From Paenibacillus sp. FSL R5-0345 (GTDB taxonomy: Bacteria > Bacillota > Bacilli > Paenibacillales > Paenibacillaceae), in NCBI RefSeq assembly GCF_000758585.1, contig NZ_CP009281.1, positions 1,612,001 to 1,676,000 on the forward strand: a DNA stretch of 64,000 nucleotides, written 5' to 3'. The position numbers and the translations under genes are program-made. Below are positions 48,808 through 64,000 of the stretch, in pieces. Positions within the stretch are counted from its first letter, which is position 1. Every line of letters starts with the position of its first letter. The notes beneath the pieces were generated by a model, which saw only the letters and a list, made by a program, of their open reading frames with translations, had not been told where the DNA came from and did not search any database.

Positions 48808-51072
48808 ATGAAAACCAACATTCAAGAACTCATATCAAAAATGACCCTTGAGGAGAAAGCAGGACTCTGCTCAGGGCTTGATTTCTGGCATACGAAGGGC
48901 ATTGAACGACTCGGAATCCCCTCTTTAATGGTAACGGACGGACCCCATGGTTTACGCAAGCAAAAAGAGAGCGCCGATCATCTCGGACTCCATAATAGTG
49001 TACCTGCGACTTGTTTTCCCTCAGCAGCAGGGATGGCTTCTTCTTGGGATCGGGATTTAATCGGGCGTGTGGGTAAAGCACTCGGGAAAGAGTGTCAAGC
49101 AGAGAACGTTGCTGTTCTGCTTGGACCGGGAACAAATATTAAGCGCTCTCCATTGAACGGCCGTAACTTTGAATATTTTTCGGAAGACCCATACCTTTCT
49201 TCGGAGATGGGCGGGAATCATATCAAAGGTGTGCAAAGTGAAGGAGTAGGAACCTCACTCAAGCATTTTGCCGCTAATAATCAGGAGCACCGGAGAATGT
49301 CTGTTGATGCCGTTGTTGATGAGCGGACGCTGCGGGAGATTTATCTGGCTAGCTTTGAAGGCGCAGTTAAGAATGGTCAGCCATGGAGCGTGATGTGCTC
49401 TTACAATCGAGTGAACGGTGAGTATGCTTCCGAGAGTGAATTTCTTCTGACTAAGATTCTTAGAGAAGAATGGGGCTACGAGGGATTCGTCGTCTCCGAC
49501 TGGGGTGCGGTCAATGAACGGGTGAAGGCGCTGCAAGCAGGGCTGGAGCTGGAAATGCCTTCAACCGGAGGAATTGGTGATGCTAAGATTGTCGCAGCAG
49601 TACAAAGCGGCGAGCTGGCTGAAGAAACGTTGGATCTTGCAGTGGAACGGTTACTTGCCTTTGTTTTTAAGGCGGTGGAGAACCGTAAAGATAATGCATC
49701 ATTTAATGCGGAAGAACATCACCAACTGGCTCGTGAAGTGGCACGGGAGAGCATGGTGCTCCTTAGAAATGAGGATCATATTTTACCGATAGCTAAACAA
49801 GGAACGATTGCGGTCATAGGTGAGTTTGCTAGAAATCCACGATATCAGGGCGGGGGCAGCTCACATGTGAATCCGACGAAATTAGATGACGCTTTTGAAG
49901 AGATGAAGGCTCTCGCAGGTTCTGCCGAACTGCTGTATGTACAAGGTTATGAACTGAATCATGACGGAATTAATGAAGCCTTGCTGCAAGAGGCGCGGGA
50001 TACAGCGGCAAAAGGGGATATAGCCGTATTGTTCCTTGGACTTCCGGATAACTATGAATCAGAGGGGTATGATCGCAGTCACTTGTCACTTCCAGAGAGC
50101 CATAAAGCACTGATCGATGCAGTGGCTGAGGTGCAAACCAATATCGTTGTCGTGCTCAGCAATGGTTCACCCATAGAAATGTCTTGGATCCATAAAACGA
50201 AGGGGATTCTTGAAGGTTATCTAGGTGGGCAGGCTTTTGGCGGTGCAGTTGCAGATCTATTGTTTGGAGAGGTTAGTCCAAGCGGTAAACTGGCAGAGAC
50301 CTTCCCGATGAAGCTGAGCGACAATCCATCCTTTCTTAATTTCCCGGGTGAAGGGGATACAGTGGAGTATAAAGAAGGTTTGTTTGTAGGCTATCGTTAT
50401 TATGATAAAAAAGAGCTTGAACCGCTGTTTCCTTTCGGCTTTGGCCTAAGCTACACAGAATTTCAATACAGTAATTTAACAATTTCCAAGAGCAGTATAA
50501 AAGATAACGAGTCCGTAAAAGTTACGGCTACCGTCAAAAATACAGGTACTCATGCTGGAAAAGAAATCGTTCAGCTCTATGTTAGTGATGTGGAGAGCAG
50601 CGTAATCCGCCCAATTAAGGAGCTAAAGGGCTTTCAGAAGCTAGCGCTTCAGCCTGGGGAAGAGCAAGAGGTTGCTTTTGAACTGGATAAACGTTCCTTT
50701 GCTTATTACAACGTTAACATTGGGGATTGGCATGTGGAAAGTGGCATTTTTGACATTGCTATCGGTTCCTCTTCAAGGGATATTCGTCTGACTGCTTCTA
50801 TTGAAGTGGAATCGACAGTTCCGCTTGCGTTACGATATCATCGCAACAGTACCGTTGGTGATTTGCTAGTCAATCCACGGACGGCAGATAAAGTGAAGAA
50901 ATTCAGCAGTGTTTTTGGGTTAGGCGATGCGATGGGCGATAATCCAGAAATGTTCATGGCGATGATGAAATATATGCCGCTGCGGGCACTGATTGGATTC
51001 GGCCAAGGGAAATACACGGAAGAAGATTTAGCCAAGGATCTGCAAGAATTTAATGCTTTGGCTGCGGAGTAG
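48808..51072 (+). CDS. Glycoside hydrolase family 3 beta-glucosidase
   Basis: 754 residues with no signal peptide. N-terminal barrel ([44 protein letters not shown]) with nucleophile Asp231 in VVSDWG. Next come the alpha/beta domain and the fibronectin-III-like domain ([19 protein letters not shown]). A further 70-residue tail follows with a Met-rich stretch. It hydrolyses terminal beta-glucosides from imported oligosaccharides. The ATG at 48808 is 7 nt after GAGGAGG; the earlier in-frame ATG at 48760 has no SD. Confidence 0.9.
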
Positions 51073-51118
51073 GAGATAGAAAAGGCCAAGTCTGATCTTT
51101 AATAAAAATCTAATATAA

Positions 51119-51177
51119 GTAAGCCAGTAGTCCATATTAGTCATATTTGATATGCACCACTGGCTTACTTTTTTTTA
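51119..51177 (+). terminator. Rho-independent terminator of the GH3 gene
   Basis: GTAAGCCAGT and ACTGGCTTAC form a perfect 10-bp stem around a 30-nt loop, followed by TTTTTTTT. Confidence 0.75.
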
Positions 51178-51240
51178 TTTCTTGTTCAGTTGCCGATATC
51201 AGTAAACTTGATGATTGTGGCATGATTTCTTAGGTGTGCC

Positions 51241-52401
51241 TCAACGCTTCCTTGAAGGAAATCCGTATTCTTTAGCTTGCCACGCTACTAGTAGCGCAAG
51301 AATTAATAGAATAAACAATGCCAACGGGAAGGAGCGGACACCAACTGTTTCAATAAGAATCCCACCCATCACGCCGCCACCGCCGATAGCTAGGTTCCAT
51401 GCCATTACTAACATCGACTGGGCCATATCTGCACTTTCGCCAGCTGCTTCAGCAACTGCTGTTTGTAGCAAAGTAGCCGCTCCTCCGAACGTCAACCCCC
51501 ATACAGCAACCACTAAATAGATCATTATTTGGCTGCTACTAATGCCCAGCACAATGGATGACAAGGCGAAAGCCACGAGGCTGATTAGAACCAATGGACG
51601 TAGTTTACGGTCGATCAAAATACCGATGATCCAGATGCCAACAAGTGCAGTTATGCCAAAAATAAGCAGTATCAAGTCAACGCGTTGGGTAAGCCCTGCC
51701 TGAGTAAGATAGGGTGCAATGTAGGTATACAGGATGTTATGTGCTAGCACCCATGCCAGAACGACAAACAGTACCGGCCGTACTCCCGGAATAACAAAAA
51801 CCTTGTAGAGAGGGAGCCGCTTATCAGGAGCCTCCCCTGGATAGTCCGGTAGCTTCCAAACTACCCAGGCGACAAGCATCAGAGCCAGAAGCGACATGAT
51901 CCCGAAGATGGAGCGCCAGCCCACAAGGGTGCCAAGAAGTGTTCCGGCAGGGACACCGAGTGCTAGAGCGAGAGGCGTGCCCACCATCGCCACCGCCATA
52001 GCTCGGCCCTTGCGTGATTCCGGGACCATACGCCGGGCATAACCTGCAATCATGCCCCATAAGACTCCAGCGGATACGCCTGCGAAGAACCGAGCTCCCA
52101 GCGTAAGTAAATAATTTGAAGAAAGAGTGGTGACGGTGTTGAATACGAGAAAACCAAGGATGCACATTAGCAGAAGGGGACGCCGCCGCCATCCGCGTGT
52201 CACGGTGGTTATAGGAATCGCGGCTAACAGCGAACCAAGGGCGTACAAAGTGACAAGTTGACCTGCAAGGGCCTCGGAGACGCCAAGCCCGTCCCCAATT
52301 TGGAGCAATAGCCCGGCTGGGATGGTTTCGGTAAGAATACAGATAAACCCCGTCATAGCAAGGGCAAGTAATCCAGCCCATGGGAAACGTTCAGTTGTCA
52401 T
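51241..52401 (-). CDS. MFS transporter (DHA1, AraJ/YtbD type)
   Basis: 386 residues with about twelve membrane spans; typical RGRAMAVAMVGTPLALALGVPAGTLLG (motif A and span 5 region). A Met at 52401 gives the expected start MTTERFPWAGLLALAM. The longer frame to 52515 lies inside the serine hydrolase gene and is unlikely. It overlaps that gene's end by 11 nt, so they form one operon, perhaps modifying and exporting the same compound. Substrate unknown. Confidence 0.85.
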   Translation of the reverse strand: MTTERFPWAGLLALAMTGFICILTETIPAGLLLQIGDGLGVSEALAGQLVTLYALGSLLAAIPITTVTRGWRRRPLLLMCILGFLVFNTVTTLSSNYLLTLGARFFAGVSAGVLWGMIAGYARRMVPESRKGRAMAVAMVGTPLALALGVPAGTLLGTLVGWRSIFGIMSLLALMLVAWVVWKLPDYPGEAPDKRLPLYKVFVIPGVRPVLFVVLAWVLAHNILYTYIAPYLTQAGLTQRVDLILLIFGITALVGIWIIGILIDRKLRPLVLISLVAFALSSIVLGISSSQIMIYLVVAVWGLTFGGAATLLQTAVAEAAGESADMAQSMLVMAWNLAIGGGGVMGGILIETVGVRSFPLALFILLILALLVAWQAKEYGFPSRKR

Positions 52402-53557
52402 ATATAGCTTCACACAGGTCAACTGTAAACTGACCTGACATGCCTTCCAGTGCGGTATTGGTGAACGCGACAACACTGAGCCGCTGCTTGGGATCGACGA
52501 ACCACGAATGACCATAGGTACCGCCCATTCGCCATGTCCCTGGGGATTCTGGAGTGTCTGCGGCTGCAGGGTCCTTGAGTACCGTAATGCCTAGGCCAAA
52601 GCCTCGGCCTGGCCAAAAGGCCATTGGCAGATCACCGATCTGGTTGGATGTCATATCCTGAACCAAAGATTCCGGCAGCAGAGGGGCTCCGCCTTTGCGT
52701 AATGTTTCTAGTAGTTGCAAAAAGTCTCCGGCGCTGCCGACCATACCAGCTCCCCCTGAAGGATAGGCAGTGTCGTCCAGTGCTCGGCCAGGTGCAAGCA
52801 AGAATCCTGCTGTACCCTCGACGAAGGAAATGCTGTCCGAATCAAGCAAAGGCCGTGGCTCTGGACTATCATTGGTATAGGAAGTGGCCAACCGTTCTAA
52901 ATCGACTGCAATAAATCCGGTATCATTCATACCCAACGGTTTTGTAATGAGCGCATGTATGGCCTCGCTGAGTGGTGTCTCTGTGACCTTTGCAATTACT
53001 GCTCCAAGCACATCTGTTGCGATGGAATATCTCCACTCGGTACCTGGCGTATAGAGGAGGGGGACAGAGGCTAGCCGACGTAGGTTCTCTTCCAACGTAA
53101 TACCGGGCTGATCCATGCCATCTGATACTCCCGCTTGTTGGTAGGAGCCATTCTCTTCTTGAAAGAAACGGTAAGACAGACCTGCGGTGTGTGTCATCAA
53201 ATGACGGATCGTCATTGTGGCCACCTCACCGTTCTGCAAACGTGGCTGGAATTCTGGAAGCCAACGATCAACACGATCGTCCAACCGCAGGCGACCTTGC
53301 GCCACTAATACTAGAGCAGCAGTTGAAACGATAGGTTTAGTAACCGAAGCGAGCCGAAATAAGGCGTCTTCTTGCATAAGCAGGTTCTTTTCGCGGTCGG
53401 CAAGACCGGCAGCGCAGCTATAAACCAGTTCTCCATCTATCGCCACTTTAACAACAGCACCAACTAACCGCTTGTCGGCAAGTGTACGATCAATTACCTC
53501 ACCGACACGACGGGGTAATCCCTCTGAATTAATTTTATGTGAATCCAATATCTCCAA
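52391..53557 (-). CDS. Serine hydrolase, beta-lactamase-like (CubicO family)
   Basis: 388 residues with no signal peptide. Active-site SVTK (Ser71, Lys74), Tyr in TEWRYSIA, and a C-terminal GGTYGHSWFVDP equivalent of the KTG box. TTG start at 53557, preceded by GGAAGGG. Not closely similar to the other serine hydrolase at 46226. It is the first gene of an operon with an MFS transporter, divergent from an Lrp-type regulator that probably controls both. Confidence 0.82.
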   Translation of the reverse strand: MEILDSHKINSEGLPRRVGEVIDRTLADKRLVGAVVKVAIDGELVYSCAAGLADREKNLLMQEDALFRLASVTKPIVSTAALVLVAQGRLRLDDRVDRWLPEFQPRLQNGEVATMTIRHLMTHTAGLSYRFFQEENGSYQQAGVSDGMDQPGITLEENLRRLASVPLLYTPGTEWRYSIATDVLGAVIAKVTETPLSEAIHALITKPLGMNDTGFIAVDLERLATSYTNDSPEPRPLLDSDSISFVEGTAGFLLAPGRALDDTAYPSGGAGMVGSAGDFLQLLETLRKGGAPLLPESLVQDMTSNQIGDLPMAFWPGRGFGLGITVLKDPAAADTPESPGTWRMGGTYGHSWFVDPKQRLSVVAFTNTALEGMSGQFTVDLCEAIYDN

Positions 53558-53625
53558 CAGTCTTCATCCCTTCCGAATAGTTAAAGTCATAAATGCTTTA
53601 CTATTGTAGGGTTATTATATAAAAT

Positions 53626-53667
53626 AAGGTACCTTGATTACATAAGGTAACTAAGTTAAATTACCTT
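53626..53667. promoter_or_regulatory. Palindromic operator-like repeats between the Lrp and hydrolase genes
   Basis: AAGGTACCTT (53626-53635) is a perfect 10-bp palindrome. Beside it AAGGTAA (53644-53650) faces TTACCTT (53661-53667). Repeated AAGGTA half-sites in the divergent gap suggest cooperative binding of the Lrp-type regulator. Confidence 0.5.
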
Positions 53668-53729
53668 TATAACGATTAATTACAAGTTAGTTTATAGGAT
53701 TGACCTTAAATTTAAAGGAGGAGATTTCG

Positions 53730-54194
53730 ATGGATCATATTGATAAGCAAATTCTTCTTCACCTTCAGAGTCAAGCGAGAATTTCTATGACAGAGCTGGG
53801 AAAATGTGTTGGTTTATCACAACCTGCAGTTACGGAAAGAGTTAGGCGCATGGAGGAAAAAGGCATCATCAGCGAGTATCGCACCATAATTTCCCCTGAA
53901 AAGATTGGCAAGCATGCTGCTGCCTACATGTTATTTCATTCAAGGGATTGTAATGCATTTCTTGATTTCTGCCGTTCGTCTCCCGATGTCGTTGAATGTT
54001 ACCGTATAAGTGGGGAACACAACTACTTATTGAAAGTAGTAACCGACTCTACCCGAGCGCTTGAGGAGTTCGGAAATCAATGTGATAAATACGGTACCTA
54101 CACCATTCTAATCGTGATGTCATCGCCAATCGATCATAAATTTCTTATACCATCGCTTGAAGAAGCGGGCATCAACTTGCTGAATAAGAATTGA
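53730..54194 (+). CDS. Lrp/AsnC family transcriptional regulator
   Basis: 154 residues. N-terminal HTH (MTELGKCVGLSQPAVTERVRRMEEKGII) and C-terminal RAM/AsnC ligand domain (VECYRISGEHNYLLKVV, IVMSSPIDHK). The ATG at 53730 is 6 nt after GGAGGAG; the frame opens upstream at 53700 without need. It is divergent from the serine hydrolase/MFS pair, the likely targets. Ligand unknown, possibly an amino acid or analogue. Confidence 0.87.
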   Translation: MDHIDKQILLHLQSQARISMTELGKCVGLSQPAVTERVRRMEEKGIISEYRTIISPEKIGKHAAAYMLFHSRDCNAFLDFCRSSPDVVECYRISGEHNYLLKVVTDSTRALEEFGNQCDKYGTYTILIVMSSPIDHKFLIPSLEEAGINLLNKN

Positions 54195-54787
54195 ACATTA
54201 CTCTTCCAGCCCATAGCACCGCAAAAAGACTCTCCTATGTAAAAAAGAGGACGTTGGTCGTAATAACGGTTTAGATAATCCACTATCTCAAATATTTTTT
54301 ATTGAAGACACAAACTTCTTCAGTAGGTACTTTAGATCAATATGAAGTGGAGTAAGATGGAGTAATCCCTAACGTTCGTAATCAATGATGTATTTAGAAA
54401 AAAGGCTGCCCTTAGAGGCGGCTTTTTTGGTTTTAAAGGATTGAGTTAATGAATCTAAATTATCCATTCATTCTCTTCTATATGACTTATATTACATTAA
54501 ATACCATAATGTCATATGACAAAAGTGATGACAACGTACACTATTTTTATGCTCTTTTTTTATATATATTGTTGGAATGACTTGTACAAGATGCTAGTAG
54601 TGGTATGAAAAAAGATAAGATAATCGATAATTTTCTTGATGTACGGGTGAGTTTTAAATAGCAACTTTAGTTGTCTTGATTGAACCACGGATAGAATGGT
54701 AGGTTTAGGTGAATTGTCGAATGCTGGAGGAGATATGGGGCTTTAAGGAATTAATCGTATTTGGAAGCGATCTACAACTAAATAATA
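54195..54787. other. Gene-free stretch ahead of the surface locus
   Basis: No credible gene was seen. It holds one terminator and an AT-rich region (54430-54650) that probably contains the promoter of the glycosyltransferase/collagen locus; I could not assign -35 and -10 boxes with confidence. Confidence 0.5.
54397..54428 (+). terminator. Rho-independent terminator downstream of the Lrp gene
   Basis: AAAAAAGGCTGCC, loop CTTAGA, GGCGGCTTTTTT: a short GC stem with A- and T-tracts on either side. Confidence 0.7.
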
Positions 54788-56629
54788 ATGGATGGTACAA
54801 AGCGAATGAATATTAGCATTATATTGTTGGCTCAGCACTTTAACGTAACCGTACAATGTCTGGATCGAATTAAGCAATATACGTCTATGTCCTATGAACT
54901 TATTGTTGTCTCGGATAATGAATCTGCCGAAGTATCGAATTTCCTTGCTTATGAATACGGTGTTCATGTCATTCATAGCAGGAGTAAAGGGGTTGCAGCT
55001 TCATTTAATCTGGGCGCGCGGTCCGCTTCGGGTGATCGTCTTGTATTTATCCGCGATCAGATCATGGTAAATGAGGGGTGGCTTGAGCAGTTGTCGGGCT
55101 GTCTGGACCATCATCCGAATGCTGCGATCGTGGGTCCGAGGATGAATGACGTTAGCGGTGGCCAAAGGATTCCGATTGTTTATCAGAACATGGAGCAACT
55201 CTATCAGTCGGCGTCAATGCTTGCCATTGGGAAATCGATGTCTTGGACCCGGGTTCCTAGGCTTGTCAGTTTGCTAATGATGATACCGCGTCACTATTTT
55301 GAGCAGATGGGGTCCTTCGATGAGAGGTTTGAGGTTGAATCCTATGAGGACGATGATCTGTGTTATCGCGCATTATCTATGAATCTGGATATTTACATAG
55401 CGGAAGGATGCGTAGTCTTCCGGAAGGAACCTCCTTCAGTCAATCCCAATGATCCCGATTGGTACAATAACAGATTAATCTTGAATCGTGCTATGGCCAT
55501 AAGTAAATGGGGATTCGATTTAACTTCGTCATTGCATTGCAGTACGCGAAAGGTCACGGTCAGCTTATGCATGATCGTGAAGAATGAAGAGCAAACCTTA
55601 GGACGTTGTTTATCCAGCGTGCGGGAGCTAGTCGATGAGATCATTATTGTGGATACGGGTTCGAGTGATGGAACCAAAGAGCTCGCGGCTTCTTATGGAG
55701 CTCGGGTTTATGATTTCGAATGGGTGAACGATTTCTCCAAAGCAAGAAATTATGCCTTCAGTCTCGCCACTCAAGAGTATCTGCTGTGGTTGGATGCGGA
55801 TGATTATCTGCAGTCAGAGGATGCAGAGGCTCTAGAGTCCATTGTATCCGAATTGCCATGGGACATCGATGCCGTATCGATGCATTATTATCTCGATCGA
55901 GATAAGGACGGAAGCGTAACTTCGAGTTTAAGGCGGAATCGTCTGGTTAGACGAAGTTGTGGTTTTCGTTGGATTGGAATCGTTCATGAGTACCTGGAGG
56001 TCGAAGGCAAAGTACTCTATGCCGAGTTAGGCATAACGCATGATAGAAAGCATACGCAGTCTTCGCGTAATCTGCTTATCTATGAGGGGATGATAGAAGC
56101 GCAGGCGAGCTTCACTCCGCGGGATTTATTTTATTATGCTAACGAGCTGTATGATCACGGCCAATGGCAGCGAGCGATAGAGCAATATGATACCTTCATT
56201 GCAATGCCGGATGGCTGGATGGAGGACAAGCTGCTAGCGAGTCGGCGTGCCGCCGATGCATTGGCGCAATTAAGCCGCTTTCAAGAAGCTAAGCTTAAAG
56301 TACTTCAAGCCTTTGCATTGTCACCTCCCCGAGCAGAAGCTTGTTGCCAATTAGGGTCTTATGAGCTAGTTGAACAACGGTTCGAGAATGCTGTTTTTTG
56401 GTACAAGCTAGCCACAGAAGTTCCTAAGCCGACTGAGCCTAACGCTAGAATAGACAATTCGGTATGGACGTGGCTGCCACATCTGCAATTATGCGTTTGT
56501 TATGATCGATTAGGTCAACACGAAGAAGCTAACTATCACAATGAATTAGCTAGGGGTTATGTACCGAAGCATCCGAGCGTCATAGCAAATCGCGATTATT
56601 TAAAGCAATACGTAACTTTATATACTTGA
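54788..56629 (+). CDS. Tandem GT2 glycosyltransferase with TPR-like C-terminus
   Basis: 613 residues without signal or membrane span, so cytoplasmic. First GT-A domain 8-235: [34 protein letters not shown] (RDQ where a DxD is expected) and [11 protein letters not shown]. Second GT2 domain about 255-420: [37 protein letters not shown] (intact DxD) and [15 protein letters not shown]-like helical repeats follow to the end, a layout seen in SunS-like and other protein glycosyltransferases. It ends 14 nt before a collagen-like gene rich in Thr, its probable acceptor. The SD is weak; the ATG at 54806 is an alternative start. Confidence 0.83.
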
Positions 56630-56643
56630 GGGGGATATTGTTA

Positions 56644-58920
56644 ATGGCAAGACTAAAGAGAGCGAAGGCAAGTGGCAAGAAGAATGGGAATCAATTAGCC
56701 TACAAGAGCTCAATGGCATTTATTTTAATGAGTCAGTTAATTGCACCATTGAGCCCTGCCTTTAGTGGTATTCTACCCCGGGCAAGCGCAGCGGCTTACA
56801 GCGATGTCAATACTTCTTCATGGGCGTACCAGTATATTACCAAAGCGTCCGCATTAGGGGTAATTGAAGGAGATGGTTCAGGCAACTTCAACCCGAACCG
56901 TCCAATCACGAATCAGGAAGCGGTAGTTATGGTGCTTAGGTTCATGGGATATGAGCAACCAAAAGAAAATGGAACGAGCCTGCCCTTCACTGTGGATTCA
57001 TGGGCTACTGTATGGATACAGCAAGCCATTGATATCGGCCTAGTAATCCCAAGTGAGGAAGAGAGACCAAACACCGTCATCTGGGGAAAAGAGCAAGCGA
57101 GTCGCGAGTGGATAACACGTCTAGTTATTCGTGCGGCAGGCAAGGAATCTGAGGCGATAGAGTTTAAGGATAGTAGCATCGGTTTTTCGGATGCGTCAGA
57201 TGCATCGGACTGGGCAACAGGCTACATTAAAGCTGCAGTAAACCGTAATGTCATTTCGGGTTTCCCTAATAATACTTTTAAACCTAAGCAGACGGCTACT
57301 CGTGCTGAGTTTGCTGCTATTTTATCTAAGACGGAAATATTTGCGAGCACGGTATCCGATCGAATTATCCATGGTTCTGTCGTCTCGATGTCGAAGAATT
57401 CTATCGAATTGTTAAGCAGCAGCGGCCAGACGTCGAAGTTCGAAATCAATACGCATTCAGTTCTGTTCGGAGACAATGGCAAGGGTGTGTTGCCTACAGG
57501 GGCATTGGTGACGCTCATCCATAATGGAGGAGTGGCTTCCTTCGTTGAAGTATTAGGAATGGTGGCAGTAGGCCAGACAGGTTCAAAAGGTGATAAGGGA
57601 GACACGGGCGCAACTGGCGCAGCAGGTCAAAACGGGTCCTCTGGCTCCAGTGGACCGCAAGGCGCTACGGGAGCAACTGGAGCAGTTGGAGCAACAGGCG
57701 CAACTGGAGCTGTAGGAGCAACCGGAGCGACCGGACCACAGGGAGTGCAAGGCATTCAAGGAGTAACCGGGGCGACTGGAGCTAACGGTGTAGCTGGGGC
57801 AGTCGGTGCGACTGGAGCAACCGGACCGCAGGGAGTCCAAGGCATTCAAGGAGTAACCGGAGCAACCGGGGCGACTGGAGCTAACGGTGTAACTGGAGCA
57901 GTTGGAGCGACTGGAGCAACCGGAGCAACCGGAGCGATCGGACCACAGGGAGTCCAAGGTATTCAAGGAGTAACCGGAGCAACCGGGGCGGCTGGAGCTA
58001 ACGGTGTAACTGGAGCAGTTGGAGCGACTGGACCGACTGGAGCAATCGGAGCAACTGGACCACAGGGAGTCCAAGGTATTCAAGGAGCAACCGGAGCAAC
58101 CGGAGCAACCGGGGCGACTGGAGCTAACGGTGTAACTGGAGCAGTCGGCGCGACTGGAGCAATCGGAGCAACTGGACCACAGGGAGTCCAAGGTATTCAA
58201 GGAGCAACCGGAGCACAGGGAGTGCAAGGCATTCAAGGAGTAACCGGAGCAACCGGGGCGGCTGGAGCTAACGGTGTAACTGGAGCAGTTGGAGCGACTG
58301 GACCGACTGGACCGACTGGAGCAATCGGAGCGACCGGACCACAGGGAGTCCAAGGCATTCAAGGAGTAACCGGAGCAACCGGGGCAGCTGGCGCATCAGG
58401 TGCATCAACAATAATTCCATTCTCTTCCGGAGCACCAATTACCGTAACGACAATCCCGGGGGGATTAACCGGCACAGGGGCAATGCTCGGATTTGGCAAT
58501 TCGTACTCAGGAGCTAGCATAATAGGTAATACAATAGATTTGACTGGAAATTATGGTTCGAATCTTAACCTGGCGTTTGTCGTTCCGCGTAATGGTACGA
58601 TTACTTCGATTTATGCTTTCTTCAGTACAACTACAGCAATGTCTTTAGTAGGCACAACCGTAAACATTCAAGCACAAATGTATAAAGCGGGTAGTAACAG
58701 CAATAGTTTTACTCCTATTAGTGGTGCAGCAGTATCCTTGGCGCCTAGTTTTACAGGAATAATATCTATCGGATCTATTAGTACCGGATCAGCAACAGGA
58801 TTAAATGCTGCTGTTCAGGCTGGTGATCGCTTAATGCTAGTATTCACTTCTACAGCTGCCGGTCTAAGCTTGATAAATTCAGTAACAGGTTATGCGAGCG
58901 CTGGAATTGAAATTAAGTAA
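56644..58920 (+). CDS. SLH-anchored collagen-like surface protein with BclB-type C-terminal domain
   Basis: 758 residues. Signal region (1-50), SLH domains (about 52-240), a linker, then 92 uninterrupted Gly-X-Y triplets (residues 313-588). A C-terminal domain of 170 residues (from [12 protein letters not shown] to [10 protein letters not shown]) strongly resembles the C-terminal domain of Bacillus exosporium protein BclB. About 42 triplets carry Thr in Y, candidate O-glycosylation sites. Charges occur only in the first three triplets. SLH domains bind pyruvylated wall polymers, so the fibre should sit on the cell or spore surface with the BclB domain outward. The ATG at 56644 follows GGGGGAT. 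Confidence 0.9.
57580..58407 (+). repeat. Gly-X-Y coding tandem repeat with 117-bp higher-order period
   Basis: The triplet block GPQ-GVQ-GIQ recurs at triplets 18, 28, 41, 54, 67 and 85, with a GAQ variant at 71. Spacing is mostly 13 triplets (39 residues, 117 bp), separated by GAT-rich segments. Near-identical DNA across copies implies recent duplication and length variation by slippage or recombination. Confidence 0.85.
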
Positions 58921-58972
58921 TTCAAGATTTGGGGCTGGACCATCCATTTTATTTGATAGGAAGTGATTAAAT

Positions 58973-60802
58973 TTGGCAAGAAAGCTAGTTTCGATAAAAA
59001 GATTGAGCTTACTGTTGGTGTTAGTTCTTATATTTCCATTCGTCATTCAATTTCCGTCTGCGGGGTATGCAAAAGGGCGTGCTTTTGAACAAGTAAAGCT
59101 GCTGGCTGCACCGGCGAATCTGGCAGTTAGCGGTACAACCTCCACAAGCATCGGCCTTACCTGGGATGCCGTAGTGGGAAGCTCTGACTCCGATGTGAGT
59201 TATAAGGTAAGCCTAGCGGAGCAGACCAATTCTAGCGTGACCGATGTGGTCTACACCTTTAATTCAGGTGGGTTAACGGAGTATACGGTGAAGGGATTAG
59301 CTTCTGACCGGAGCTATACATTCACGGTCCAAGCGGTAAAATTATCTGGACCTGTGTCAAAAATAAGTCTCCCTTTAATCGCAAGTACGCTTCCAGCAGA
59401 AGCACAATCTCCGACAACGAAGGAAGAGGAACTCCCACTGGCCGATCAAGAACCGCCGAGTAGCCCTAAGTTAAGTCTTATCGGTCGCACATCGGATAGT
59501 ATTAGCATGGCATGGAGTTCATCCGATGATAATGTGGGAGTTGCGGAATATGTTCTATATCAGGACTCTAATCTGTTGGCAGAAGTAACGGTCAACACAA
59601 CAGTCTACTCGGCCGTCAACTTGAAGGCTGGACAAGAGTACACCTTTTTAGTACAAGCTATAGACGAAGCGGGGAATAAATCAGCATTCAGTAACGAGTT
59701 GAAGGTTAGTACACTTGATGATGTAAGTGTGGTTGGTCCGGTTATGAGCATGGGCAACGGGAATTCCTTCCATACATTGACTATCCAGCCGGATGGTACC
59801 GTATGGGCTTGGGGCAATAATAGGAAAGGTCAGCTCGGTGATAGTACGACCATTACTCGTAATAAGCCTGTGCGAATTGTTGGTTTGCCGGAGATAAGTG
59901 CCGCATCCGTTGGACAAGACCATTCCATCGCACTTGCGACGGACGGAACGGTTTGGACATGGGGAGGCAATAATGTGGGCCAGCTGGGTAATGGTGCGGT
60001 GGAGTCCCAGCTTATGCCGCAGCAAGTGCCTGGATTGGCGCATGTCGTAGCGGTTCAAGCGGGTGAGCAGCATTCGTTAGCGTTATTGTCCGATGGAACG
60101 GTGTGGGCGTGGGGACTTAATGCTTATGGGCAGCTTGGAAATGGTACCAACGAGGATAGCACATTACCGGTGCAGGTTGTAGGTTTGGAGCCAATCGCAT
60201 CAATCTCGGCCGGAGCCTTTCATAATCTAGCGGTTAGCCGCGAGGGTCAGGTTTATGGATGGGGGTTCAATGCGTATGGTCAACTCGGCGATGACACAAA
60301 GATTGACCGCTCGACTCCCGTGCAAGTTGCTGAATTAAACGGGGTTGCGTCCGTATCTGCCGGTTTCTACCACAGCATGGCAGTGAAAAAGGACGGAACC
60401 GTATGGAGCTGGGGAACGAACGCCAAGGGGATTTTGGGTGATGGGACAACCGAAGATCATTATACTCCCGTTCAAGCGGTGGATCTTGGCTCAGTGATCA
60501 GCGTATCCGCTGGCGCCTTGCACAGCATAGCGCTGAAGAGGGACGGAACCGTATGGCTATGGGGAGCGAACAACGAGGGTCAACTCGGTGGTGGAGCTGA
60601 GTCAGAGCGTTCTATCGCGTCAATGCTCAATATTGGCAGTCGTATCGTTACTATTAGTGCAGGTTATATGAGCGGCGGAGCGGTTAGCGAAGAGGGAGCC
60701 TTGCTGACTTGGGGTTACAATGGACTAGCCCAGCTTGGTGACGGCACTTATACTAATGTCATTGATCCGGTTACAATTTCACTTGTAGAAGAAACTAATT
60801 GA
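58973..60802 (+). CDS. Secreted FN3 and RCC1-repeat protein
   Basis: 609 residues. Signal peptide (1-34, cleavage near AGYA-KG), two fibronectin type III domains (about 43-140 and 162-250) and seven RCC1-type repeats (255-605) of the form GTVWAWGNNxxGQLGDGT, enough for one closed seven-bladed propeller. No wall-anchor motif. TTG start at 58973 with GGAAGTG 7 nt upstream. It follows the collagen-like gene by 52 nt with no terminator between, so the two are probably co-transcribed. It may bind the fibre or a host or matrix partner. Confidence 0.85.
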   Translation: MARKLVSIKRLSLLLVLVLIFPFVIQFPSAGYAKGRAFEQVKLLAAPANLAVSGTTSTSIGLTWDAVVGSSDSDVSYKVSLAEQTNSSVTDVVYTFNSGGLTEYTVKGLASDRSYTFTVQAVKLSGPVSKISLPLIASTLPAEAQSPTTKEEELPLADQEPPSSPKLSLIGRTSDSISMAWSSSDDNVGVAEYVLYQDSNLLAEVTVNTTVYSAVNLKAGQEYTFLVQAIDEAGNKSAFSNELKVSTLDDVSVVGPVMSMGNGNSFHTLTIQPDGTVWAWGNNRKGQLGDSTTITRNKPVRIVGLPEISAASVGQDHSIALATDGTVWTWGGNNVGQLGNGAVESQLMPQQVPGLAHVVAVQAGEQHSLALLSDGTVWAWGLNAYGQLGNGTNEDSTLPVQVVGLEPIASISAGAFHNLAVSREGQVYGWGFNAYGQLGDDTKIDRSTPVQVAELNGVASVSAGFYHSMAVKKDGTVWSWGTNAKGILGDGTTEDHYTPVQAVDLGSVISVSAGALHSIALKRDGTVWLWGANNEGQLGGGAESERSIASMLNIGSRIVTISAGYMSGGAVSEEGALLTWGYNGLAQLGDGTYTNVIDPVTISLVEETN

Positions 60803-60812
60803 ATTTGAAGAG

Positions 60813-60854
60813 TAGGGAATTCCATGCCTAAGTGGCAGGGAATTCCCTATTTTT
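60813..60854 (+). terminator. Rho-independent terminator of the surface locus
   Basis: TAGGGAATTCC and GGAATTCCCTA form a perfect 11-bp stem, loop 15 nt, followed by TTTTT. Confidence 0.85.
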
Positions 60855-60912
60855 GTATGTCGAAAGAGAAAACTCTCTGCTTTGTTATTTGAAAGCAAAT
60901 GTCTTTGTGGCT

Positions 60913-60953
60913 AAAAAAAGAGACTCTTCTATATAAATAGAGGAGTCTCTTTA
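60913..60953 (-). terminator. Terminator of the CoA-disulfide reductase operon
   Basis: AAAGAGACTC with TCTAT inside pairs with its complement ATAGA-GAGTCTCTTT. On the minus strand it is followed by a run of seven T. Confidence 0.8.
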
Positions 60954-60964
60954 ATGATAACAAT

Positions 60965-63520
60965 TTAGATAAATAGATTATGATTAGATTGATCGGCTTG
61001 ACCGAGGTAATACCCTACACCGCCGATTTTTACGCCGTCGATCAGTTCTTCACGGGTGATGCCCATAAGGTCCATAGACATTTGGCAGGCAACGATCTCG
61101 ACACCTTGGTCGACAGCCATCTGAATCAACTCTTCCAAAGAAGAGACATTGTTGTTCTTCATTACAGAACGAATCATTTTGGAGCCCATGCCCATCATGT
61201 TCATATTGGAAAGGGTTAGCTTCCGGCTGCCGCGTGGCATCATCGCTCCGAACATTTTTCCGATGAAATTTTTGTTCACAGGTACTTTCTCATCCTTGCG
61301 GATAATGTTTAAGCCCCAGAAGGTAAAGAACATCGTTACTTTTTTGCCGCTGGAGGCTGCTCCATTAGCAATGATGAAGGAAGCAATCGCTTTATCCAAA
61401 TCCCCGCTGAACACAACCATCGTACTTGCGTTACTAGTTTGGACGGGGTGTGCTCCTGCTAGTGCGGATTCTTCGCTCAATCCTTTGCACAGATAAGCTT
61501 CGATCATGCCCGTAGGCAGCTTCGTTAATTGTAAAAGCGTGTGCTTAGACATACGAGCCCATGCCTTAATATCTTCATAGAATCCCGGATCGGAAGCCGT
61601 TACCTTCAAGATTTGTCCGTCCAAGAGCGGGTCCATGCTCATCTTGACTTGAATCAGCGGCCCGGGACAGCATAGTCCGCAAGCATCTAGCACGGAATCA
61701 GGTGTTAGATCTAATTCTTGTTTGACTGGTGCGGATACGGGAATCCCATTTTCATTTCTCGTGGCCGTCGCCATCGCTGACCCAGACGCCGTGGCTGACC
61801 CAGATCCCGCTGCTGCAATCTCTTTGCTGGCTGCTGAAATCGTAGCGGTTGGCGCTGAGATATCTTTTTTCGTAGGAGTAAATTTGCTCAGTTGGTACGT
61901 CTTATAGCCGCCGGTCAGATTCTTCACACGGAAACCTTTTTGCTGCAAAATCCGGGAAGCCGTATAGCCTCTAAGTCCAACTTGGCAATACACCCAAATT
62001 TCTTTACTAGAGTCAAGCTCACTTAGACGACCACGCAAATCATCTACAGGGATATTAATGGAGCCTTCAATATGGCCGTTGGCATGTTCGATTTCCGAAC
62101 GCACGTCAACTAAAATGGTGTTGTTCTTGTCGCGTCCTTCTAAATCCTTTGGAACGAATACCGTGGTCATGCCTTGCAAAATATTTTCAGCGGCAAAGCC
62201 AGCCATGTTCACCGGATCTTTAGCGGAAGAATAAGGAGGGGCGTAAGAAAGCTCCAATTCCGATAAATCAGTGACCGTACCTCTGAACCGAATAACTGTG
62301 GCGATATCGTCGATACGTTTATCTACTCCGCTGTAACCGACAGCTTGTGCTCCTAGCACCGTACCTTTTGGATCAAAAATCAGCTTCATAGATATCGGAG
62401 TTGCCCCCGGATAATAAGTTGCATGAGAGCTTGGATGTACGTAAATCACGTGATAAGGTAAGCCCAAACGCTGTAGTGTTTTTTCGTTATTGCCGGTAGA
62501 AGCACCTGTGATTCCAAATACTTTGATAATGGAAGTTCCTTGGGAACCTTTATAAGTAGTGTTTAGACCGCTAACGTTGTCTGCTGCAATCCGACCTTGT
62601 TTATTGGCAGGGCCTGCTAATGGAATGGCGGTTTTAGTTCCGTTCACGAAATCCACCACTTCGATCGCGTCACCGACAGCGTAAACCTGATCCAAATTTG
62701 TCTCCATACGCTCGTTGACCAAGATATGCCCGCGTGGACCGAACTCTAAGCCACTATCCTTCAGGAAAGAGGTATCCGGCGAAACGCCGATAGCCAGCAG
62801 AACCATATCACTTTGCAGCACCGTGCCACTTGCCAATTGAACTTCTATTTGTTCACCAACATCTGCAAACCCTTGAACCATATCCGAAAAAATAAGATTA
62901 ACGCCATGCTCATCAAGCTCTTTTGCCAAAATAGAAGACATTTCAGGATCGAACGGAGCTAAGATTTGCGGACCCGCCTCGATCAAGGATACTTCCAGTC
63001 CAGCTTCTCTAAGGTTCTCAGCCATCTCAACACCGATAAATCCACCACCAATCACAACGGCTGAACGAGTGCCTTCGGCTGCGACTTTGGTTTTGATTTT
63101 GTCAGTGTCGGGAATGTTGCGCAGCATGTGAATTTTGGAACTCTCGATACCAGGTAGATTCGGACGAATTGGCTTAGCACCGGGTGATAAAATAAGCGCA
63201 TCATAGCTCTCTTCATAGGAGCCTTTTTCTTTACTTTCTACTCGCACTTTCTTGTTCACAGGGTCGATAGACACCACTTCGCTTTGAATCCGAACATCGA
63301 TGTTAAACCGTTTATGCATCGCCTCCGGTGTCTGCACCAGCAGCTTGGAACGGTCCTGAATGGAACCTCCGATATAATAAGGTAGTCCGCAATTGGCAAA
63401 AGAAATGTACGGATCACGCTCAAACATTACAATATGAGCCTCTTCATCTAATCTCCGAAGCCTGGCGGCGGCTGATGCGCCTCCTGCAACTCCTCCGACA
63501 ATCAGTACTTTTTTACTCAT
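60965..63520 (-). CDS. CoA-disulfide reductase fused to rhodanese, TusA and DsrE-like domains
   Basis: 851 residues and four domains. FAD/NAD(P)H disulfide reductase (1-450; GGVAGGASAAAR, redox Cys44 in SFANCGLPYY, GGGFIGVEMAENL). Rhodanese (about 465-555; Cys512 in WVYCQVGLRG). TusA-like (about 605-680; LDACGLCCPGPL). DsrE/F-like (about 690-851; ACQMSMDLMGI). The first pair matches CoA-disulfide reductase-rhodanese fusions that reduce CoA persulfides; the last two are sulfur-relay carriers. The cytoplasmic enzyme thus combines reduction and transfer of sulfane sulfur. A Ser/Ala-rich linker separates rhodanese from TusA. An ArsR gene precedes it by 6 nt. Confidence 0.9.
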   Translation of the reverse strand: MSKKVLIVGGVAGGASAAARLRRLDEEAHIVMFERDPYISFANCGLPYYIGGSIQDRSKLLVQTPEAMHKRFNIDVRIQSEVVSIDPVNKKVRVESKEKGSYEESYDALILSPGAKPIRPNLPGIESSKIHMLRNIPDTDKIKTKVAAEGTRSAVVIGGGFIGVEMAENLREAGLEVSLIEAGPQILAPFDPEMSSILAKELDEHGVNLIFSDMVQGFADVGEQIEVQLASGTVLQSDMVLLAIGVSPDTSFLKDSGLEFGPRGHILVNERMETNLDQVYAVGDAIEVVDFVNGTKTAIPLAGPANKQGRIAADNVSGLNTTYKGSQGTSIIKVFGITGASTGNNEKTLQRLGLPYHVIYVHPSSHATYYPGATPISMKLIFDPKGTVLGAQAVGYSGVDKRIDDIATVIRFRGTVTDLSELELSYAPPYSSAKDPVNMAGFAAENILQGMTTVFVPKDLEGRDKNNTILVDVRSEIEHANGHIEGSINIPVDDLRGRLSELDSSKEIWVYCQVGLRGYTASRILQQKGFRVKNLTGGYKTYQLSKFTPTKKDISAPTATISAASKEIAAAGSGSATASGSAMATATRNENGIPVSAPVKQELDLTPDSVLDACGLCCPGPLIQVKMSMDPLLDGQILKVTASDPGFYEDIKAWARMSKHTLLQLTKLPTGMIEAYLCKGLSEESALAGAHPVQTSNASTMVVFSGDLDKAIASFIIANGAASSGKKVTMFFTFWGLNIIRKDEKVPVNKNFIGKMFGAMMPRGSRKLTLSNMNMMGMGSKMIRSVMKNNNVSSLEELIQMAVDQGVEIVACQMSMDLMGITREELIDGVKIGGVGYYLGQADQSNHNLFI

Positions 63521-63526
63521 GATGAT

Positions 63527-63811
63527 TTAGTCCTCCCCTAAAAATAGCTGAATTAGATGTTTGATCTTCTCGTCTTTAACAGAATAGTTAATTTCCAGTC
63601 CATTACGTTCGGTTTCGACAATGCCTAGGGATCTAAGCTTCTGTAAATGCTGTGATACCGTAGATTGTGGAAGGTCAAGACAGTCTTGCATGAAGCTAAC
63701 GTTGCAGCTGCCTTTTTCAAGCAGTCCTTTAATGATGCATAAGCGAACGGGATGAGCGATAGCCTTTAAGGTTTCGGCGGTTTGGTTATAGGCTTTAAAA
63801 TTTTTGTCCAT
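63527..63811 (-). CDS. ArsR family regulator, candidate persulfide sensor
   Basis: 94 residues with a winged helix (CLDLPQSTVSQHLQKLRSLGIVETERNG). Cys25, Cys36 and Cys44 lie around the first helices. ArsR regulators next to rhodanese and persulfide reductase genes (SqrR/BigR group) sense persulfides through cysteine pairs, a plausible but unproven role here. First gene of the minus-strand operon; it also faces a rhodanese gene on the plus strand across a dyad operator. Confidence 0.83.
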   Translation of the reverse strand: MDKNFKAYNQTAETLKAIAHPVRLCIIKGLLEKGSCNVSFMQDCLDLPQSTVSQHLQKLRSLGIVETERNGLEINYSVKDEKIKHLIQLFLGED

Positions 63812-63843
63812 GGTTATGAACTCCTCGCTTTACAATATCCTTA

Positions 63844-63861
63844 TATCGTAATATTATGATA
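63844..63861. promoter_or_regulatory. Dyad operator for the ArsR regulator
   Basis: TATCGTAATATTATGATA is an 18-bp inverted repeat with 8 of 9 bases paired, in the gap between the divergent ArsR and rhodanese genes. Related AT-rich half-sites flank it. It is the obvious binding site for shared control. Confidence 0.6.
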
Positions 63862-63912
63862 TAGTGATATAAAAATCAAGTTATTTTTACAAAAGAGAAG
63901 GAGAGATGCTCG

Positions 63913-64000
63913 ATGGCTTTTAAAATTCCAAAGGAAATTACTCCTCAGCAAGTGGCGGAACGTCTGAAGAATGGAGAAGCTCCTACGCTGCTGGATGTAC
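63913..64000 (+). CDS. Rhodanese-like domain protein, N-terminal part only (cut by window edge)
   Basis: The first 29 codons read MAFKIPKEITPQQVAERLKN and end in LLDV, the typical opening of a single-domain rhodanese (sulfurtransferase) before its DxR element. GAAGGAGAG precedes the ATG. It is divergent from the ArsR gene and belongs to the same sulfane-sulfur locus. The active site lies outside the window. Confidence 0.7.
   Translation, partial: MAFKIPKEITPQQVAERLKNGEAPTLLDV

Follow-up and report, generated by a model that had tools for sequence, protein, structure and literature searches.

We analysed a stretch of 64,000 nucleotides (the window), bases 1612001-1676000 of the 6.79-Mb single-contig genome of Paenibacillus sp. 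FSL R5-0345. It carries three consecutive genes for a glycosyltransferase (GT) with two GT2 domains and a TPR part, a collagen-like surface protein with SLH domains, and a secreted RCC1-type protein. We consider it probable (roughly 0.75) that these genes form a co-transcribed cassette for an O-glycosylated, wall-anchored collagen fibre. The enzyme is likely to act on the adjoining collagen; the recurrence of the enzyme/SLH-collagen pairing in relatives suggests that the one sugar-coats the other. Compared with the known sgtA-bclA3 pair of C. difficile, the window's pair is new, by its domain make-up, in having a second GT2 domain fused in front of the enzyme and SLH wall-binding domains in the collagen protein. 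In the open-access literature we found no paper on an SLH-anchored collagen with a GT. Below, G plus a number denotes a genome (G000 being the window's own) and L plus a number a locus stretch.

All three open reading frames (ORFs) lie on the + strand. The first (54788-56629) encodes the 613-amino-acid (aa) enzyme, which was assigned by ORF, Pfam and family comparison; Pfam gave two GT2 stretches and a weak TPR match, and in the translation, read by eye, we saw no signal peptide and no membrane segment. The second ORF (56626-58920) measures 764 aa if a TTG start is taken. An ATG at 56644, preceded by GAGGGGG, appears the likelier start, and it leaves a 14-nucleotide (nt) gap to the enzyme gene. 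The third ORF (58973-60802) starts after a gap of 52 nt. These coordinates agree with an earlier note on this DNA, which had described three consecutive genes separated by 14 and 52 nt, and Pfam also recovered the domains proposed there (two GT2 plus TPR; SLH plus Collagen; FN3 plus RCC1, with two FN3 stretches). The single terminator claimed to close the set was found as a hairpin with a T run at 60808-60854 (+ strand; -30.5 kcal/mol, z -6.66, none of 200 shuffles equally stable). A simple promoter/terminator scan (sigma-70 sites only) gave matches at chance level and overlooked this hairpin.

The surface protein (56644-58920) has a signal peptide, recognised by eye, and an SLH region at 56785-57330 with two repeats above the Pfam cut-off (PF00395, 94.9 bits). 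The Collagen family (PF01391) matched with 142.4 bits. Our count gave 93 consecutive perfect Gly-X-Y triplets (57571-58407), 43 of them with Thr in Y; the long perfect run reported before was there, and its figures of 92 triplets and about 42 Thr needed correction. The earlier note had overlooked the C-terminal domain (58399-58914), which is of the BclB/BclA3 type (TIGR03721, 183.8 bits with the cut-off at 93.15). With a collagen repeat followed by this domain, the protein has the BclA/BclB-type architecture.

According to the available text of PMC7157674, SgtA consists of GT-A and TPR parts, its gene lies immediately upstream of bclA3, and the enzyme adds beta-O-GlcNAc (GlcNAc, N-acetylglucosamine) to Thr of BclA3 collagen peptides. 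The same text describes the native BclA3 glycan as longer than one sugar, yet reports no extending enzyme found. We located sgtA by a primer printed in that paper; in its locus (L196), bclA3 follows after 66 nt. SgtA is 40% identical to residues 256-608 of the window enzyme over 354 aa (E 2e-101), and the C-terminal domain of BclA3 is 58% identical to the window's over 166 aa. Both genes are homologous and stand in the same order, with the collagen gene following directly on the enzyme gene, and in both collagens position Y is rich in Thr (0.70 in BclA3, 43/93 in the window). SgtA, however, has 358 aa and one GT2 domain, whereas the window enzyme has a second GT2 domain in front, which makes the window pair a variant of the sgtA-bclA3 type and not SgtA itself. 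Moreover, BclA3 belongs to the spore and lacks SLH domains, and the 10-kb C. difficile stretch holds no RCC1 gene. As a separate observation, the TPR part of SgtA (L196:6366-7448) matched PF23558 below threshold (21.5 bits, cut-off 27); this family is the peptide-binding TPR domain of animal prolyl 4-hydroxylase, likewise a collagen-modifying enzyme. The window protein also resembles BclA of B. anthracis/B. cereus, for which the available text of PMC11952670 and PMC8968730 describes short Thr-linked glycans, a collagen stalk and a C-terminal trimerising domain. By description, not by sequence, BclA differs in being exosporium-targeted, and its glycan genes are not shown there as a dual GT adjoining the gene for the collagen.

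We searched 100 genomes of the genus with the full enzyme as query, and 394 genomes of the family. The full-length two-domain enzyme was present in 12 of the 100 genus genomes, which fall into clade A (G000, G038, G078 and G039; enzyme identity 90-100%) and clade B (eight genomes; 50-52%). At all 12 loci the SLH-collagen is the next gene, although it is in two frames in G087 and runs off the contig in G038. The two genes overlap at all eight clade-B loci (by 4 nt in seven and by 1 nt in L077). Clade A occupies two chromosomal settings and clade B a third. Other genera of the family yielded at least 10 further full-length loci in nine genomes (L118-L127), and two more divergent ones (L131, L138) were recognised on inspecting loci. 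This gives at least 24 compact dual-GT loci in the family, and the SLH-collagen gene adjoins in 23 of the 24 found, so the neighbourhood on whose conservation the earlier note had made its reading depend is kept in relatives. The total is a lower bound: among single-type matches with long frames we inspected L143-L145, L167 and 12 more, one of which (in G110) proved dual. Gene order and strand of the pair vary, which fits selection keeping the pair together and not one ancestral operon alone.

A quick tree search on the second GT2-TPR domain of 88 proteins grouped the 24 dual enzymes in one clade with a Shimodaira-Hasegawa-like approximate likelihood ratio test (SH-aLRT) support of 100; on this tree, the compact dual enzyme has arisen once in the family. 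Distances between enzymes correlated with those between SLH parts (22 pairs; Mantel r 0.957, a value reached in none of 5000 permutations), and in G109, which has two paralogous pairs, each member matched its own counterpart. Searching the 100 genus genomes with the SLH part gave E values of 1e-60 or lower in 11 of the 12 dual-enzyme genomes; G087 reached only 1.2e-35 because of its split frame. Only one of the other 88 genus genomes, G004, has an SLH-collagen without a dual enzyme. A further SLH search gave ten unexplained matches down to E 1.2e-77, all of which were inspected: nine carry collagen repeats and one, in G142, has none. Below that level the matches merge into a common SLH protein of ~930 aa.

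The sequence in the PDB nearest to the second GT2 domain is GmaR, the flagellin glycosyltransferase/anti-repressor of Listeria (E 1.2e-28, 152 residues); SunS is also among the nearest, and the two-domain K4 chondroitin polymerase is similar by sequence. These similarities would suit an enzyme that mainly modifies an S-layer protein, flagellin or a polysaccharide, with the collagen as a mere neighbour. We regard this as very improbable: GmaR belongs to a flagellar system, but no gene of any of these three kinds adjoins the window's set, and translations and Pfam revealed no flagellar gene among the ORFs of 50000-64000. SunS and ThuS act on Cys of small peptides and show 19-21% identity, and the chondroitin polymerase makes a polysaccharide and is not known to us to have a TPR part or a collagen partner. 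Collagen is the substrate of the closest homologue known from biochemistry, and the near-constant SLH-collagen neighbour likewise argues for the collagen as target.

Thr content follows the enzyme. In 26 SLH-collagens of dual-enzyme genomes the median proportion of Thr in Y was 0.72; the 22 that adjoin the enzyme gene ranged from 0.29 to 0.91 (mean 0.66), and three of the four encoded elsewhere in such genomes had 0.77-0.83. The SLH-collagens of five genomes without a dual enzyme had 0.05-0.24 (Mann-Whitney p 0.0014), and all five of these genomes carry a single-domain enzyme. With a cut of 0.29, set after the data had been seen, 25/26 proteins from genomes with the enzyme lie at or above it versus 0/5 from those without. 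Two contig-broken SLH-collagens (in G038, and the second copy in G279) were excluded from the count.

Single-domain GT2-TPR enzymes of ~365 aa are widespread, with matches in 283 of the 394 family genomes, a figure that includes the duals, and in 104 of 398 from the class. A collagen run of at least 12 triplets was found within ~5.5 kb of the gene at 13 of 20 single-domain loci versus 1 of 20 shifted control stretches (Fisher p 1.4e-4). The loci were hand-picked down the ranked list, one per genome, with their neighbours unseen beforehand, and the controls came from the same contigs except three. As a group, SgtA-like enzymes keep company with collagen genes, seven of the 20 excepted. Two further sets of 20 loci, selected for their rank, their length or some special interest, were not treated as samples; in one specially chosen set, at least 12 triplets in a row were found at 14 of 20 loci. 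The window's own genome also has, at 5724375-5728524 (G000:C1; L038), three consecutive GT2-TPR genes behind a DUF6385 protein.

Several observations weigh against the cassette reading. Shared tree history alone would likewise yield a high Mantel value. One dual-GT locus, in G298, lacks collagen in a 12-kb stretch whose contig ends 1.6 kb from the gene, and the seven exceptions among the sampled single-domain genes have no collagen nearby. Nine SLH-collagens have no adjoining GT, four of them in genomes with a dual enzyme elsewhere, and we rejected the reverse rule that an SLH-collagen always stands beside a GT. Likewise, three other fused enzymes pair with SLH-free collagens (G538, G728 and G110), and the rule that two GT2 domains always go with an SLH-collagen was dropped. 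The enzymes of G538 and G728, which lie outside the family, fall outside the clade of 24; that of G110, a family member, was not in the tree. The G110 enzyme (L276:6726-8987) has 753 aa, with ~160 extra residues between its domains, and adjoins a collagen of 1854 aa with 457 triplets in one run. As to Thr, the fourth SLH-collagen encoded away from the enzyme gene, a 20-triplet fragment in G367, has 0.00 in Y, and the five enzyme-free, Thr-poor proteins stem from only two genera, so relatedness may account for part of the difference. Collagen loci elsewhere in the window's genome (at ~2.34, 5.41 and 5.76 Mb), none with an adjoining GT2-TPR gene, have 0.25-0.74 Thr in Y, which does not differ significantly from the partners of dual GTs (p 0.40). 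The available text of PMC8968730 gives an average of 48.3% Thr in Y for Gram-positive collagens. In view of this average and of the similar collagens in the same genome, Thr-rich Y positions alone were rejected as proof of glycosylation.

The 40% identity to SgtA suggests that the second GT2 domain with the TPR part (aa 254-607; 55547-56608) initiates the glycan with GlcNAc. The N-terminal GT2 domain (54806-55528) may extend it: its YEDDD motif is present in 21 of the 24 dual enzymes, reads EEDYD in L121 and has been lost from L131 and L138, though the usual DXD site is reduced to a single Asp (IRDQ/MRDH). SgtA-like domains repeatedly have a second, unrelated GT fused to them or encoded next to them, which also makes an extending role possible. 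The fusion also has a counterpart made of two genes: in L146 (14060-15304) and L147 (4402-5649), a single-domain GT2-TPR gene is followed directly by a free-standing relative of the window's first domain (30% identity). An Anp1-like GT (PF03452, a weak match) is fused before SgtA-like domains in L143 and L251 and is a separate neighbouring gene in L128; by its domain assignment, it is a second, unrelated way to pair a second GT with a collagen GT. If only the second GT2 domain were active, single GlcNAc residues would sit on the collagen and the first domain would be degenerate or structural. The lone Asp, and the loss of the ED motif as well in L131 and L138, fit such a state, but the motif's retention in most enzymes, the good fold given by structure prediction for the first domain and the recurrence of second GTs with unrelated partners make it unlikely.

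We tentatively propose, at somewhat less than even odds, that the enzyme unites initiator and extender for collagen in one protein: domain 2 would start the Thr glycan, and domain 1 would be the extender that was sought in vain for C. difficile BclA3. The enzyme would have arisen once in the family together with SLH-collagens, turning a spore-type glycocollagen into a wall fibre whose Thr glycan takes the role that hydroxyproline has in the triple helices of animals. The fused enzyme of G110 with its SLH-free collagen lowered these odds. Thr glycans may stabilise triple helices; the open-access literature searched for Riftia-type Thr glycosylation gave nothing directly usable.

On the cassette reading, the TPR part of the cytoplasmic enzyme would bind the unfolded collagen chain. 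The second GT2 domain would then put the first sugar on Thr in Y (GlcNAc from UDP-GlcNAc, by homology to SgtA), and the first domain would attach a further sugar. The chain would be exported via its signal peptide and trimerised by its BclB-type C-terminal domain. Accessory SecA2 exports pre-glycosylated protein in other systems; the window's genome has a second SecA-like gene (G000:C1:2995673-2996791; 780 aa), whose product might do so. It is well established, also in the available text of PMC6030368 and PMC11464976, that SLH domains attach to the cell's secondary wall polymer; their presence points to a wall location, consistent with the earlier proposal that they hold the fibre on the wall. 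The BclB-type domain, together with the spore location of BclA3 and BclA (PMC7157674 and PMC8968730, in the text available), could instead indicate a BclA/BclB-type spore glycoprotein that acquired SLH domains and sits on the spore and not on the growing cell. This appears somewhat unlikely given the wall polymer that SLH domains bind; moreover, scans of the protein against Pfam and NCBIfam gave no match to an exosporium leader.

The third gene encodes a 609-aa secreted protein with two FN3 domains and an RCC1 propeller. Pfam reported RCC1 in six stretches, and by eye we recognised seven blades of the WG-N-GQLG type, as had been described before. In clade A the gene is part of the unit (4/4): close relatives (at least 87% identity) occur in only these four of the 100 genus genomes, always after the SLH-collagen. 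Elsewhere, an RCC1 gene (405 aa, 38% identity) lies directly 3' of the SLH-collagen in G367 after a 14-nt gap, and in G363, which has no dual enzyme, a long RCC1 plus SLH protein (30% identity) follows the SLH-collagen after 117 nt and reaches the end of the stretch examined. This position in three lineages makes chance less likely, yet the gene is absent at most loci. That it is a passenger sharing the terminator by chance is quite conceivable, if a little short of an even bet: apart from G367 it is missing beside the other 20 dual-GT loci, including all eight of clade B, but in clade A it is also the third gene in G039, at another chromosomal place. In clade A, the propeller protein would associate with the fibre or the adjacent wall. 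Its proposed role as a partner thus gains from clade A and two other lineages and loses from the remaining loci, and nothing was found in support of a cap. Two RCC1-type proteins are also encoded within ~10 kb of another collagen gene of the same genome (G000:C1:2329302-2339771; L034); one that was scanned has a copper amine oxidase N-terminal domain.

A conserved non-coding block that precedes the enzyme gene contains the perfect palindrome TGTCATATGACA (54510-54521). Block and palindrome are kept in all four clade-A genomes, including G039 with its different chromosomal context, and in this clade the block moves together with the cassette. The palindrome is possibly the operator of the unit.

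Apart from sgtA-bclA3 we found no collagen-glycosylating pair with published enzymology, and the present comparison extends this pair to a family-wide form that would be wall-anchored. In the first GT2 domain there is now a concrete candidate for the extending activity that eluded the authors of the SgtA study. For materials work, the dual enzyme may point to a way of making glycosylated bacterial collagen with just one enzyme. Finally, SLH-collagens with and without the enzyme offer a natural comparison for asking whether Thr glycans stabilise the hydroxyproline-free triple helices of bacteria.

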